64,000 bases of DNA from Microbacterium cremeum. Its GTDB lineage: Bacteria > Actinomycetota > Actinomycetes > Actinomycetales > Microbacteriaceae. The stretch covers positions 2,294,001 to 2,358,000 of the forward strand of contig NZ_CP063812.1 in the NCBI RefSeq assembly GCF_015277855.1. Direction: 5' to 3'. This document shows, piece by piece, positions 12,266 through 34,466 of this stretch. Under the pieces are notes generated by a model. It was not told the origin of the DNA. It made no database searches and saw nothing but the letters and a program-made list of their open reading frames with translations. Within the stretch, counting starts at the first letter, position 1; every line of letters starts with the position of its first letter. A program made the translations under genes and the position numbers.

Positions 12266-12385
12266 TGTCCGGCGGTGTCCTACTCTCCCACAGGGTCTCC
12301 CCTGCAGTACCATCGGCGCTGGGAGGCTTAGCTTCCGGGTTCGGAATGGGACCGGGCGTTTCCCTCTCGCTATGGCCGCCGAAAC
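12266..12385 (-). rRNA. rrf: 5S ribosomal RNA
   Basis: The minus strand reads GTTTCGGCGGCCATAGCGAG at the 5' end and closes with the complementary GGACACCGCCGG end, as in actinobacterial 5S rRNA. Internal CCCATTCCGAACCCGGAAG is the conserved loop region. Length is about 119 nt; the ends are accurate to a few bases. Confidence 0.96.
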
Positions 12386-12490
12386 TCTCTTGATGTTTCA
12401 GTCAAACACACATGATCGTGAAGATTGTGTGTGGTGTCCCGACCGTACATCGGGAACCACTCAGTGGACGCGAACACTCGCAGAAGTGTT

Positions 12491-17505
<5,015 letters not shown>

Positions 17506-25273: not shown

Positions 25274-27852
<2,579 letters not shown>

Positions 27853-27884
27853 GATCGCGGTTGTCGGGGGGCGCCGGAGACCGA

Positions 27885-28808
27885 TCAGTCCTGCCGCAGC
27901 AGCCAGACGAGGAGCGCCTTCTGGGCATGGAGGCGGTTCTCCGCCTCGTCCCACACCACGCTCTGCGGTCCGTCGATCACCTCGGCGTCGACCTCGTAGC
28001 CGCGGTCAGCCGGGAGGCAGTGGATGAAGATCGCGTCGCCCTTGGCCAGCGACATGAGCTCTTGCGTGACCTTGTAGCCGCCCAGGTCGCGCAGTCGCTC
28101 GAGCTTCTCCTCCTCCTTGCCCATCGACACCCACGTGTCGGTGACGATGACGTCGGCGCCCGCCGCCGCCTCGTTCGGGTCGGTGTAGAGCGTCACCGAA
28201 CCACCCGTCTCGGCGGCGCGGCGGTCGGCGTCGGCGATCACGTCGTCGCGCGGGGCGTAGGCCTCCGGCGAAGCGACGCGCACGTGCATACCCGCCGTGA
28301 CGCCGGCCAGCACGTACGAGTGCGCCATGTTCGACTTGCCGTCGCCGAAGAACGCCAGCGTGAGACCGGCGAGGTCGCCCTTGTGCTCCTTGATGGTCAG
28401 CAGGTCGGCGAGCAGCTGGCACGGGTGGAAGTCGTCGCTGAGGGCGTTGACGACCGGGACGCGAGTGCCGCGCGCCATCTCCTCGAGGCCCGCCTGGGCG
28501 TAGGTGCGCCACACGATGGCCGCCACCTGGCGCTCGAGCACCCGCGCGGTGTCGGACGGGGTCTCCTTGCCGCCGAGCTGGCTGTTGGCCGTCGAGATGA
28601 TCAGCGGCGAGCCGCCGAGGTCGGCGATGCCGACCGCGAACGACACGCGCGTGCGCGTCGACGACTTGTCGAAGATCACGGCGACGGTCTGCGGGCCCTG
28701 GAGCGCCTTCAGCTTCCAGCGGTCCTTCTTGAGCGCGATCGCGAGGTCGAGGATCTCGTCCTGCTCGGCCTGCGTCAGGTCGTCGTCGCGCAGCAGGTGA
28801 CGGGTCAC
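27885..28808 (-). CDS. argF: Ornithine carbamoyltransferase
   Basis: ArgF makes citrulline from ornithine and carbamoyl phosphate. The carbamoyl-phosphate loop STRTR is at residues 50-54, HPCQ at 128-131 and the ornithine-binding HCLP at 263-266. At 307 aa the length is normal. The GTG start at 28808 overlaps the argD stop (GTGA), so translation is coupled. Confidence 0.96.
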   Translation of the reverse strand: MTRHLLRDDDLTQAEQDEILDLAIALKKDRWKLKALQGPQTVAVIFDKSSTRTRVSFAVGIADLGGSPLIISTANSQLGGKETPSDTARVLERQVAAIVWRTYAQAGLEEMARGTRVPVVNALSDDFHPCQLLADLLTIKEHKGDLAGLTLAFFGDGKSNMAHSYVLAGVTAGMHVRVASPEAYAPRDDVIADADRRAAETGGSVTLYTDPNEAAAGADVIVTDTWVSMGKEEEKLERLRDLGGYKVTQELMSLAKGDAIFIHCLPADRGYEVDAEVIDGPQSVVWDEAENRLHAQKALLVWLLRQD

Positions 28809-30945: not shown

Positions 30946-32099
30946 GAGGAGTACGCGCTGTTCTCGTGGACGTAGTCGTGCGTGAGGTCGTTGGTGAGGA
31001 TCCGGGCGGATGCCTCTCCCACCTTGAGGTCGATGACCAGGTCGGTCGCGCGCGGGGTCAGGTCGACCTCTTCGCGCGGCCGGTCGGGGCCGCCCTGCGC
31101 GCACACCCGGACACCGTTCATCCACACGTCCACGTCGTACGGATCGAACACGGCCTGCGTGGTGCCGATCGCGGCGAGCACGCGGCCCCAGTTCGGGTCG
31201 TTGCCGAAGATGGCGGCCTTGAAGAGGTTGTTGCGGGCGACCGAGCGACCGACCTCGACGGCGTCGTCTTCGGAGGCGGCGTTCCGCACGAGGATGCTGA
31301 TGTCGTGGCTGGCGCCCTCGGCGTCGCCCTGCAGCTGCTCGGCCAGGGTCGTGCACGCCTCGGCGAGCGCCGCCCGGAACTCCGCGGGGTCGGGGGTGAT
31401 GCCGGACGCGCCGCTGGCCATCAGGGTCACCTGGTCGTTCGTCGACATGCAGCCGTCCGAGTCGAGTCGGTCGAAGCTGACGCGAGTGGCGTGACGCAGA
31501 TGCGCGTCGGCTTCCTCGGGACTGAGCACGGCGTCGGTGGTGAGCACCACGAGCATCGTCGCAAGGCCGGGCGCCAGCATCCCCGCCCCCTTCGCCATGC
31601 CGCCGATCGTCCAGCCGCCGACGCTCGCGACGACCCGCTTGGGGCGGGAATCGGTCGTCATGATGGCGAGGGATGCCGCCTCACCGCCGGCGGCCGACAG
31701 CTCGGCGATGGCGTGCTCGGTGCCGGCGAGCACCTTCGCACGGAAGACCTCGTCGCCGGTGCCGATCAGCCCCGTGGAGCACACCAGGACGTCGCCCGCG
31801 CTGACGTCCAGGAGCTCGGCGGCCTTCTCAGCGGTCTGGTGCGTCGTCTGGAAGCCGAACGAGCCGGTGAAGCAGTTGGCCCCGCCCGAGTTGAGCACGA
31901 TCGCCTCGACGGTGCCGTCCTGGATCACCTGCTGCGACCACAGGATCGGGTTCGCCTTCGCGCGGTTGCTCGTGAACACCGCCGCGCCGACCTTGAGCGG
32001 GCCGCGGTTGACGACCACCGCGACGTCGGGGGCGCCGGTCGACTTCAGTCCCGCCGCGACGCCCGCGGCCTCGAATCCCCGGGGCGCCGTGACGCTCAC
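30942..32099 (-). CDS. argJ: Ornithine acetyltransferase / N-acetylglutamate synthase (bifunctional ArgJ)
   Basis: ArgJ recycles the acetyl group from N-acetylornithine to glutamate. It is made as a precursor that cleaves itself before a threonine; the conserved cleavage site is seen as A180-T181 in GLATML. Other family motifs are [29 protein letters not shown] and GNDPNWGR. The length (385 aa) is normal. The GTG start at 32099 overlaps the argC stop. The presence of argJ means the cyclic acetyl route is used. Confidence 0.95.
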
Positions 32100-33229
32100 G
32101 GTGCCACTCCGTTCACGGTGAGCGCGGTGGCCTCGGGAAGCCCCAGCGCGATGTTCATGGATTGCACGGCGGCACCCGCGGTGCCCTTGGTGAGATTGTC
32201 GAGCGCGGTCACCACGACGACACGGTTCGCAGCGCGGTCGATCGCGAGCCCCAGGAGCGCGGTGTTGGCGCCGAGCACATCGGCCGTGCGCGGGAACTCC
32301 CCTGCCGGCAGCAGCTGCACGAACGTCTCGTCGCCGTACGCCGCCTCCCAGGCGCCGCGGATCTGCTCGTCGGAGACGCCCGGCGCGATCGGCGCGGTCG
32401 ATGTGGCGAGGATGCCGCGCGCCATCGGCACGAGGACAGGAGTGAAGGAGATCCGGATGTCGTCATCCGACGTCTCGGTCGTTGAGCGAGCGGAGCGAGA
32501 CGAAACGTCGCGTCTCGTCTCGTCGCTGCGCTCCTCGCTCAACGACCGGTACGACGCCCGAGCCGCGTACAGCGCCTGGCGGATCTCGGGGATGTGCCGG
32601 TGCGTGCCGCCGACGGCATACGGATTCGCGCTGCCGAGGATCTCGCTGGCGAGCAGGTTCGTCTTGAGGCTCTTGCCGGCGCCGGACGGGCCCACGGCGA
32701 GCACCGTCACGATGTCGGACGGGTCGATGACGCCCGCCGCGACGCCCGGGGCGAGCGACAGCGAGACCGTCGACGCGTTGCAGCCGGGGGCGGCGATGCG
32801 GGTTGCCCCGATCAGCCGCTCGCGCTGCTTGGCGCCTGCCACCGGCAGCTCGGGCACTCCGTAGACCCACGGCTCGTGGAAGTCGCCGCCGTAGTACCGG
32901 TCCCAGTCGGCGACCGACTCCAGCCGGTGGTCGGCTCCCGCGTCGATGACGAGCGGGGTGTCGCCGAGCGCGTCGGTGTACTGCCCGGATTGCCCGTGCG
33001 GAAGTGCCAGGAACACGATGTCGTGACCGGCGAGGATCTCGGGCGTGGTGTCCTGCAGCGTCAGGTGCGCGAGCGAGCGAAGGTGCGGTTGGTGCTGGAT
33101 GAGCGGCTGTCCCGCGTTGGAGTGCGCGGTCACGGTGCGGATCTCGACGTCGGGATGCGCGGCGAGGATCCGCAGGATCTCGCCGCCCGCATAGCCGGAT
33201 GCGCCGGAGACGGCGACCGAATATGTCAT
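32096..33229 (-). CDS. argC: N-acetyl-gamma-glutamyl-phosphate reductase with an inserted repeat
   Basis: ArgC reduces acetylglutamyl phosphate with NADPH. The Rossmann GASGYAGGE motif is at residues 9-17, the catalytic C150 in AAPGCNAS, and the substrate-binding GGTHRH near 208-212. The protein (377 aa) is about 30 residues longer than usual. Residues ~226-257 (from [11 protein letters not shown] to the STTETSD end) are a Ser/Arg/Glu-rich insertion that exactly coincides with a palindromic DNA repeat found elsewhere in the window. The reading frame resumes with [18 protein letters not shown] 33229 has AGGTGG at proper distance; a GTG at 33238 lies on top of that site and is less likely. Confidence 0.93.
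32477..32547 (-). repeat. Palindromic REP-like element inside argC
   Basis: A 71-bp imperfect palindrome with ends GGTCGTTGAGCGAGC and GCTCAACGACC and a centre containing GAAACGTCGCGTCTC. Its arms match the element at 42516-42545 almost exactly and the one at 58574-58649 in part. It sits in frame in argC. Confidence 0.82.
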
Positions 33230-33253
33230 GGATTCCACCTTAGAGTCTGGGGC

Positions 33254-33270
33254 GGGGCCGTTACGGCCCC
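33254..33270 (-). promoter_or_regulatory. Candidate attenuator hairpin before argC
   Basis: On the minus strand GGGGCCG (33270-33264) and CGGCCCC (33260-33254) form a 7-bp GC stem with a UAA loop, 25 nt before the argC start. There is no U-run. The left arm overlaps CGGGGG (33272-33267), which can instead pair with CCCCCG (33328-33323) directly after the leader-peptide stop codon, so two exclusive folds are possible. Confidence 0.45.
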
Positions 33271-33332
33271 CGGGCCGGAGACGGCGACGCCCGTTCGCAG
33301 ACGTCCAGGACAGGACGGCGTTCGGGGGTCGC

Positions 33333-33437
33333 CTAGACTCGGCGCTCGCGCGGGTCCAGAGAAAGGCGCTGACGGCGTCGGCGCATGGGAGCGGCGCTCA
33401 GAACGAGCGTCGGAAGTCCCTGGGTCGCCGAAGGCAT
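33333..33437 (-). CDS. Putative Arg-rich leader peptide of the arginine operon
   Basis: A 34-codon open frame starts 6 nt after a TATCGT -10 element and ends TAG 104 nt before argC. The peptide begins [13 protein letters not shown] and its second half contains [17 protein letters not shown], with eight arginines in the last 16 residues. Such a frame at the head of an arginine operon fits a ribosome-mediated attenuation leader. Caution: random frames in GC-rich DNA are often Arg-rich, so this is a candidate only. Translation would be from a leaderless mRNA. Confidence 0.5.
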
Positions 33438-33443
33438 GCGCCG

Positions 33444-33473
33444 ACGATAGCCGTCGGGCTGCGGCATCCGCAA
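33444..33473 (-). promoter_or_regulatory. Candidate promoter of the argCJBDF-H operon
   Basis: On the minus strand TTGCGG (33473-33468) and TATCGT (33449-33444) are 18 bp apart. Transcription would start at about 33437, the first base of the leader-peptide ATG. I see no convincing ArgR (ARG box) palindrome here. The rest of the 253-bp region between argC and the epimerase is the leader described separately. Confidence 0.6.
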
Positions 33474-33482
33474 ATCCGCCGT

Positions 33483-34466
33483 CTACGCCGCTGCGACTTC
33501 TCGCACAAGCGCGAGCTCGTCGGCGCGCGCGAGCCCCGCCCGGCGCGGGCGGTCGAGCCCGCGGGCCTGCTCGTCCCGGAACGTGCGCTCGAGCGTGTCG
33601 CGCAGGGGGCGCAGCCGGCCGCCGAGCAGCCGGTACACCGCGTTCGATCGGGTCCAGAAGCCGGTCATCTCGCGTGGCAGCCACAGCGGCAGCGACCGCG
33701 GGCCCGACCAGTATGCGACGTCGTGCTGCTCGAGCCAGGTGTCGGTCGCCGTCACGAGCGCGCCGGTGTGGCCGGCGACCTCGCGGGCCAGCCGGAGCAC
33801 GTCATCGAGATCGGTCGGATCGCCCACGGCATTCGCCACACCGGTCCACCGCTCGCGCCCGATCGCCTGCACGAATCCGGACAGATCGTCGACGTCGATC
33901 ACCTGGGTCCCGCGCGCGTCGAGGTCCGGCACCAGCACGTCCCCGTCACCCGCGAGCCCGAAGCGCCCGACCCAGTAGCCGAAGCGGTCGGTCGGATCCC
34001 CGGGGCCCACGATGAGCCCGGGTCGCACGATGGCCGCGCGATGCCCCAGTGCGCCGCGCACGGATGCCTCGGCGCGCACCTTCGCGCGGCCGTAGTCCTC
34101 ATCCTCATCCGGGCCGGCGGGCGCGAGCAGCTCGGCCGACTCGCCCGCGCCGGCTTCGTCGTTCGCGGCGTACACCGAGACCGTGGAGATGTACGTCCAG
34201 TGCTTCGCCCGCTCCCCCAGCGCCGCGACGGCGGCGGCCACGTGCGACGGCGTCGACGAGATGTCGACCACCTCATCCCACTCACGGCCGGTGACCGCCG
34301 CGTAGGCCTCGGGTTCGTCGCGGTCGCCGACGACGAGGGTGGTCCCATACGGCGCGTCCCGACCACCCCGGGCGAGGCAGGTCACGGATGCCCCGGCATC
34401 CGCCCACTTCTCGGCGATGCGCCCGCTCAGCCACCCGGTCCCACCCAGCACGAGCACATCGGTCAT
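33483..34466 (-). CDS. NAD-dependent epimerase/dehydratase (extended SDR)
   Basis: A 327-aa extended short-chain dehydrogenase. The nucleotide-binding motif LGGTGWLSGRIA is at the N-terminus. Ser/Tyr catalytic elements are STVSVY and DYGRAKVRAE (YxxxK variant: YGRAK). VRPGLIVGPGDPTDRFGYW is the usual region after the active site. ATG 34466 gives MTDVLVLGGTGW; an earlier in-frame start at 34478 adds only four residues. It stands alone between pheT and the arg operon. Its substrate cannot be read from the sequence. Confidence 0.82.
   Translation of the reverse strand: MTDVLVLGGTGWLSGRIAEKWADAGASVTCLARGGRDAPYGTTLVVGDRDEPEAYAAVTGREWDEVVDISSTPSHVAAAVAALGERAKHWTYISTVSVYAANDEAGAGESAELLAPAGPDEDEDYGRAKVRAEASVRGALGHRAAIVRPGLIVGPGDPTDRFGYWVGRFGLAGDGDVLVPDLDARGTQVIDVDDLSGFVQAIGRERWTGVANAVGDPTDLDDVLRLAREVAGHTGALVTATDTWLEQHDVAYWSGPRSLPLWLPREMTGFWTRSNAVYRLLGGRLRPLRDTLERTFRDEQARGLDRPRRAGLARADELALVREVAAA

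Follow-up and report, generated by a model that had tools for sequence, protein, structure and literature searches.

A candidate leaderless arginine-codon attenuator upstream of argC in Microbacterium and other Microbacteriaceae

The window, i.e. the whole stretch of 64,000 nucleotides of Microbacterium cremeum that was analysed, carries on its minus strand the operon argCJBDF-(unknown)-argH, in which argC, argJ, argB, argD, argF and argH all score above the NCBIfam cut-off. The first gene, argC (32096-33229; TIGR01850), contains at 32468-32556 an in-frame palindromic repeat element that adds about 30 residues, and a 111-base query over this repeat matches the genome at 121 sites, its own among them. 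The gene between argF and argH (26701-27954, minus strand) has no NCBIfam match and encodes a membrane-protein-like sequence. Upstream of argC, on the same strand, lies a leader peptide gene of 34 codons (33437-33333), which starts with ATG at 33437 and ends with TAG at 33335-33333, and in which 8 of the final 16 residues are Arg. It is preceded by a promoter-like motif, P1, that consists of a −35 region (GATTTGCGG, 33476-33468) with the hexamer TTGCGG (33473-33468), an 18-nt spacer and a −10 hexamer of the leaderless type, TATCGT (33449-33444), 6 nt 5′ of the leader ATG. An earlier note on this DNA had pointed out the operon genes, the motif, the frame and its Arg richness, and all of these were recovered on re-reading. 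A scan of 33150-33600 for consensus sigma-70 promoters found none, so that P1 is presumed to be a promoter because the motif is conserved and not on the strength of that scan.

Conservation was assessed in 81 argC upstream regions, namely that of the window and those of the best 80 argC relatives in named genomes, which are Microbacterium or closely allied records; leaders were detected through a TAG with GCG(A/G)C immediately after it. An equivalent leader frame with its Arg codons was found in 80/81 regions and is missing in one MAG (L060). All 80 leaders, of 23 to 43 codons, have a frame that is open from the promoter to the TAG and a TAnnnT hexamer that is separated from the ATG by 6 (76 leaders) or 7 bases (4 leaders), and GATTTG is found in the −35 region in 75/80. 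This placement of a −10 hexamer 6-7 nt before the ATG is that of leaderless leader ORFs of the mycobacterial type, and the leader transcript would probably start without a 5′ untranslated region. The last 12 codons include 6 Arg in 50 leaders, 5 in 18, 7 in 6, 4 in 3, 3 in 2 and 8 in 1, with a mean of 5.72 in frame vs. 0.69 and 1.99 in the other two frames. The leader promoter and stop codon are always in the same frame, and the lengths of the spacer between the leader stop and argC are distributed 29/28/23 modulo 3. Two leaders (L063 and L066) have an in-frame insert, LSERSESKG or LSERSETKG, that resembles the type of repeat present in the window's argC and leaves the promoter, the Arg run and the stop unharmed.

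Given that Arg-rich frames are common in GC-rich DNA, the leader could be a frame that arose by chance, a caution already expressed in the earlier note. However, among 1,055,964 strand-specific bases flanking the same loci, there were 14 closed frames that begin at a TAnnnT-N6/7-RTG start, of which one had 15-45 codons, with a single Arg, and 1 of 4050 mononucleotide-shuffled upstream sequences passed with at least 5 Arg. These controls, along with the conservation in Microbacterium and the comparison of frames, rule out a chance frame for all practical purposes. A short ORF rich in the codons of the operon's product is what is expected of an attenuator, and in this case, both the ORF and the Arg enrichment are conserved.

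The choice among synonymous Arg codons in the leaders differs from that in argC. In the last 12 codons of the Microbacterium leaders, there are 246 CGC, 154 CGA, 54 CGT and 4 CGG codons and no AGG or AGA, vs. 752 CGC, 427 CGG, 94 CGT, 38 CGA, 27 AGG and 1 AGA in argC of the same genomes. Among the 334 Arg codons in the last 20 codons of 50 leaders from other genera, 89 are CGA and 12 are CGG, compared to 20 CGA and 101 CGG of the 367 Arg codons in the corresponding argC genes (24 loci); at least one CGA is found in 50/50 of these leaders and no CGG in 40/50. With all 47 tRNA places of the window's own genome typed, the tRNA-Arg set comprises one ACG, one CCG, one TCT and two CCT. In the form of inosine-CG, tRNA-Arg(ACG) decodes CGU, CGC and CGA, of which CGA is read worst. 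Because the leader uses CGC, CGU and CGA and there is a single tRNA-Arg(ACG), the Arg run appears to be decoded by one isoacceptor, and the codon that this tRNA decodes worst is enriched in the leader. Part of the codon bias may serve RNA structure given that CGCCGA may also pair with GGCG.

Codon bias also bears on the alternative that arginine acts as a free ligand, such that the leader would be an arrest peptide on which ribosomes stall at high arginine. Arginine-responsive arrest peptides exist, namely the fungal arginine attenuator peptide and SpeFL, and the conserved Arg-rich C-terminus near the stop codon would be compatible with this function. However, the C-termini diverge among genera and have Arg in common (RRRRGGRRL, RRRLGDRRI, RRVRRARRLSATPRR and RRRLVDERR, each followed by the stop), with wide differences in the residues other than Arg and in spacing, and the synonymous-codon bias points to decoding by tRNA rather than to the peptide. 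An arrest peptide is, therefore, very unlikely.

A hairpin that starts on the leader stop codon is predicted throughout Microbacterium. Its 5′ arm, GGCGAC (strand 2; 33333-33328), begins with the third base of the stop codon, and its 3′ arm is GUCGCC (strand 3; 33288-33283), the whole hairpin spanning 33333-33283. In a search with the 5′ arm fixed at the stop codon and at least 5 of the 6 outer pairs required, the predicted hairpin was present in 80/80 leaders (76 unique, 74 with a single loop, 43-64 bases). A looser search caught unrelated long-range stems in several sequences, and the resulting pair table was dropped. Because the basal stem is nearly invariant in Microbacterium, little covariation is available: the 76 unique hairpins include one compensatory double change (L076), and the sixth pair is unpaired in two sequences (L037 and L039). 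RNAalifold, applied to the sequence alignment, returned 8 pairs, one of them with a double change, this outcome being due to the fact that the hairpin interior does not align. Compared to dinucleotide shuffles, the interior yielded a mean z of −1.6 (170 sequences) vs. −0.3 for 165 control segments, where the 170 are those of 217 sequences, redundant and leader-free ones included, in which a hairpin was found; part of the −1.6 reflects selection because folding energy itself was the criterion for taking a hairpin, which biases z downwards.

The 3′ arm region may have a competing partner. A possible strand 4, GCCCG (33275-33271), could pair with CGGGC (33293-33289), which would exclude the conserved hairpin. 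Among 79 sequences less than 0.8 alike, reduced from 145 unique ones and including some without a leader, the 3:4 pairing showed a modest signal relative to shuffles (mean z −0.55, s.e. 0.15; controls 0.16 and −0.04), and a mean z of −0.22 (s.e. 0.11) relative to partners swapped between genomes. Many relatives allow the 3′ arm region to be paired in this competing way with sequence further down; in L143, for example, GAGUGGGCG and CGCCCACUC were matched by eye.

A different switch was proposed in the earlier note, whereby CCCCCG (33328-33323) pairs with CGGGGG (33272-33267) to the exclusion of an argC-proximal palindrome, GGGGCCG-UAA-CGGCCCC (GGGGCCGTAACGGCCCC, 33270-33254). All these sequences are present in the window, but neither stem is conserved among the relatives, and the pairing gains no support as a conserved switch. 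The palindrome is best regarded as an optional argC-proximal hairpin: as such, it is not conserved, and some stable hairpin in this position (MFE ≤ −8) occurs in 43/80 leaders, that of the window included, with other sequences. The CCCCCG element is predicted to extend the 5′ side of the conserved hairpin, with 33326-33323 pairing with 33293-33290. The ribosome logic of that proposal can be applied to the conserved hairpin: a ribosome finishing at the stop would hide the strand after it, and one stalled at the Arg codons would free it.

At the gathering score, Rfam detected only rRNA in the window, away from the leader, and a complete 16S-23S-5S rRNA operon occupies 12267-17505 (minus strand). 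At a relaxed threshold, the leader region had two sub-threshold matches, to unrelated families. The Rfam scan of 8 relatives yielded only a TPP riboswitch, away from the leader, in L015 (positions 1176-1269, approximately 1.7 kb upstream of argC in that sequence). A covariance model was built from 56 sequences that cover the hairpin and the 3′ portion of the leader. At E ≤ 0.01, it matched 68/199 family genomes, and the best 30 of the 82 listed matches all (30/30) adjoin argC, two of them in the genus Microbacterium itself. In the window's own genome, the argC site alone had an E value below 0.01, the next best being 0.0104. A second leader copy in this genome was sought with a degenerate pattern and rejected, there being 2 two-mismatch matches vs. 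1 for the reversed control.

Across the family, we analyzed 110 Microbacteriaceae genomes, of which 104 had argC, and scored as a leader any frame with a window of 12 codons that included at least 4 Arg, given that scoring the last 12 codons only misses extended leaders. Leaders were found in 54/104 genomes, which represent 42/81 genera; this count includes a correction by eye, in which two pheT ends (G031 and G105) were removed and two leaders (L189 and L210) were added, the automatic count having been 54 genomes in 41 genera. Two features of this distribution count against an attenuator. In several genera, the stop is displaced downstream, such that the GGCGAC arm (strand 2) is translated as codons, and in the 50/104 genomes without a leader, ArgR was not found either. 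In a number of leader-free genomes (L131, L133, L137, L193, L204 and others), TAGATT or a similar hexamer lies 6-7 bases before the argC start. In three others (L199, L200 and L228), pheT is directly upstream, and its end is predicted to pair with GUCGCC before argC. Outside Microbacteriaceae, a similar scan found an Arg-rich leaderless frame in 0/49 argC upstream regions, which were chosen from 132 argC hits and include a few with a misplaced start and one short region (L269).

ArgR was not found in the window's own genome. In Microbacteriaceae, its DNA-binding domain was detected in 0/199 genomes and its C-terminal domain in 0/100, in contrast to the other families of the order, where the DNA-binding domain was present in 138/139 genomes, the exception being a genome of 0.8 Mb. 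Because ArgR is present in the surrounding families, we infer that it was lost in Microbacteriaceae rather than never present. The best ARG-box-like score before argC, out of a maximum of 14, had a median of 10 in the 49 out-of-family genomes vs. 7 in both the 54 leader-bearing and the 50 leader-free family genomes, in agreement with the observation of the earlier note that no ARG box is present here. Thus, at this argC, neither component of an ArgR regulon, the ArgR gene or the ARG box, was found. The earlier proposal of an Arg leader peptide of the leaderless type that acts instead of ArgR is consistent with these findings, and our best reading is that an attenuator would occupy the place that ArgR holds in the other families.

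We assign a probability of about 0.8, from sequence comparison, to the region being a ribosome-mediated attenuator that senses arginine. Under the proposed mechanism, the leaderless transcript would begin at the leader ATG or close to it, with immediate translation. With charged tRNA-Arg, chiefly the CGU/CGC/CGA isoacceptor, in short supply, the ribosome would stall in the Arg run, and expression would continue into argC; with plentiful arginine, the ribosome would reach the stop codon, and argC expression would be cut. Stalling would free, and finishing would hide, the 5′ arm of the stop-codon hairpin, which would make this hairpin the 'on' structure. The comparison among relatives bears out the frame, the promoter-like motif, the Arg codons, the synonymous bias and the stop-codon hairpin, and the sensing half of the proposal is strongly supported in this way; the output is the least certain part.

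The argC start itself is preceded by a Shine-Dalgarno (SD) sequence, AAGGTGG (33241-33235), which overlaps a possible second −10 hexamer of the leaderless type, TAAGGT (33242-33237), 7 bases before the ATG (both within TAAGGTGG, 33242-33235, minus strand). TAAGGT is found before argC in 80/80 Microbacterium leader loci, at a distance of 6 (54 loci) or 7 bases (26 loci). In the family, an SD-like motif precedes argC in 52/54 leader-bearing vs. 18/50 leader-free genomes (Fisher p = 9 × 10−12, kinship ignored), numbers that supersede those obtained with an older SD criterion (57/60 vs. 24/60). This pattern suggests that, where the leader exists, argC is built for translation from a longer transcript. 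Alternatively, argC could have a leaderless promoter of its own (TAAGGT-N7-ATG), the upstream gene then encoding an unrelated small Arg-rich protein. Along with the presence of TAAGGT throughout the Microbacterium loci, this alternative is favoured by the occurrence of TAnnnT-N6/7 before argC in 39/54 leader-bearing and 34/50 leader-free genomes of the family; 30 of the latter 34, with TAGATT and similar hexamers, have no SD-like motif. However, 14/54 leader-bearing genomes have an SD-like motif without such a −10, a leaderless start gains nothing from an SD, and the hairpin and the C-rich spacer accompany the leader. We consider an argC promoter with an unrelated upstream gene unlikely; under the attenuator reading, TAAGGT in Microbacterium may act as SD and −10 at once, and may be a promoter from which some transcription bypasses the leader.

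With respect to the output, no intrinsic terminator, i.e. a hairpin with a U-run, was found in 33150-33600, the earlier note having remarked that its argC-proximal hairpin lacks a U-run, and the 10 bases after the conserved hairpin contain at most 3 T in the 80 leaders. On these two observations, a U-run terminator and, with it, a classical transcription attenuator were rejected; a terminator without a U-run ranks third among the outputs considered and is improbable. Another possibility is translational attenuation, whereby GUCGCC, freed when the ribosome covers the 5′ arm, would pair with the argC SD (GGUGG). The cysteine leaders of mycobacteria act on translation, according to the available part of PMC9031893, and SD accessibility in the window, predicted with the ribosome footprint placed at the Arg run vs. 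at the stop codon, behaves as expected (0.55 vs. 0.07). However, the predicted accessibility did not differ between the stalled ribosome and the ribosome at the stop in 79 Microbacterium leaders (0.434 vs. 0.420, p = 0.72) or in 41 leaders of other genera (0.399 vs. 0.423, p = 0.69), and shuffled spacers gave similar values (0.400 and 0.417). SD masking was, accordingly, rejected as a general output, and control of argC translation, by this pairing or otherwise, comes second among the outputs and is doubtful.

The favoured output is termination by Rho in the spacer that separates the hairpin from argC and is rich in C and poor in G, a candidate that we hold tentatively, at somewhat less than even odds, on the basis of the composition of the spacer and the presence of a rho gene. 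Between the 3′ arm and the point 16 bases 5′ of argC, the frequency of C is 0.472 and that of G is 0.279, with C exceeding G in 79/79 sequences. In the family, the composition of bases −45 to −16 is C 0.475 and G 0.224 where a leader is present (C > G in 54/54, two of which are Microbacterium) vs. C 0.335 and G 0.345 where it is absent (C > G in 21/50); this comparison included all 54 leader-bearing and all 50 leader-free genomes, 24 chosen leader-free genomes having been used in the one before it. The C-rich spacer is not specific, given that C exceeds G in 80/80 cases both in the leader gene (C 0.434, G 0.306) and in argC over its first 100 bases (C 0.379, G 0.287), and for this reason, the odds assigned to Rho were kept lower.

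ArgR exists in the Salmonella lineage, from which the nearest tested precedent that we found originates. In this precedent, the orf34-speF leader, ribosomes stall at two Arg codons when arginine is scarce, upon which a hairpin downstream of the stop forms, with the involvement of Rho, as far as the available part of PMC6386406 describes it. Both systems feature a short leader gene in which Arg codons follow one another, and a hairpin past the stop, which in orf34-speF is formed on a pause at the Arg codons and is blocked by a ribosome at the stop. However, judging from the same part of that source, orf34-speF governs ornithine decarboxylase, whereas the Microbacterium leader precedes arginine synthesis; its leader carries an SD, and the peptide includes a conserved domain (DUF2618), unlike in Microbacterium; and its regulatory Arg codons number two, vs. 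a run of 3-8 here. The leaderless polycysteine short ORFs of mycobacteria (Canestrari et al. 2020, via PMC9031893) resemble the present leader in being actinobacterial, in the run of codons for one amino acid and, as proposed here, in attenuation; they differ in responding to cysteine before cys genes, i.e. another operon, and the available text describes no hairpin downstream of the stop. The trp, his and leu attenuators, including that of actinobacterial trp operons covered in part of PMC1262725, likewise have a leader peptide containing regulatory codons, and their mutually exclusive strands would have a possible counterpart here in the modestly supported 3:4 pairing; unlike these, the Microbacterium leader has no U-run terminator. 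The same part of PMC1262725 reports no conserved RNA structure before actinobacterial arginine operons, with Microbacteriaceae represented by one clear case, Leifsonia xyli (plus Tropheryma, if counted). Control of argC by ArgR and the ARG box concerns the same operon and the same physiological job, and neither of the two was found in Microbacteriaceae. A literature search, with most subscription journals outside its scope, retrieved no title or abstract on an arginine leader peptide before argC. We conclude that this is probably an arginine attenuator whose general kind is known and whose location and codon signature are new.

In evolutionary terms, it appears fairly probable that ArgR and its operator were lost throughout the family and that many genera substituted a leaderless Arg-codon attenuator that is tuned to tRNA-Arg(ICG) through enrichment of CGA and avoidance of CGG, i.e. 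an evolutionary swap of a DNA-binding repressor for sensing by the ribosome. Because the leader is short and easily edited, the claim is directly testable. If true, it would provide, with CGA vs. CGG, a natural test of the theory of selective tRNA charging (as outlined in part of PMC1183508), and would show that, at one and the same operon, a sensor based on translation has taken over from a repressor. It would also explain how arginine synthesis is controlled without ArgR in many Microbacteriaceae.
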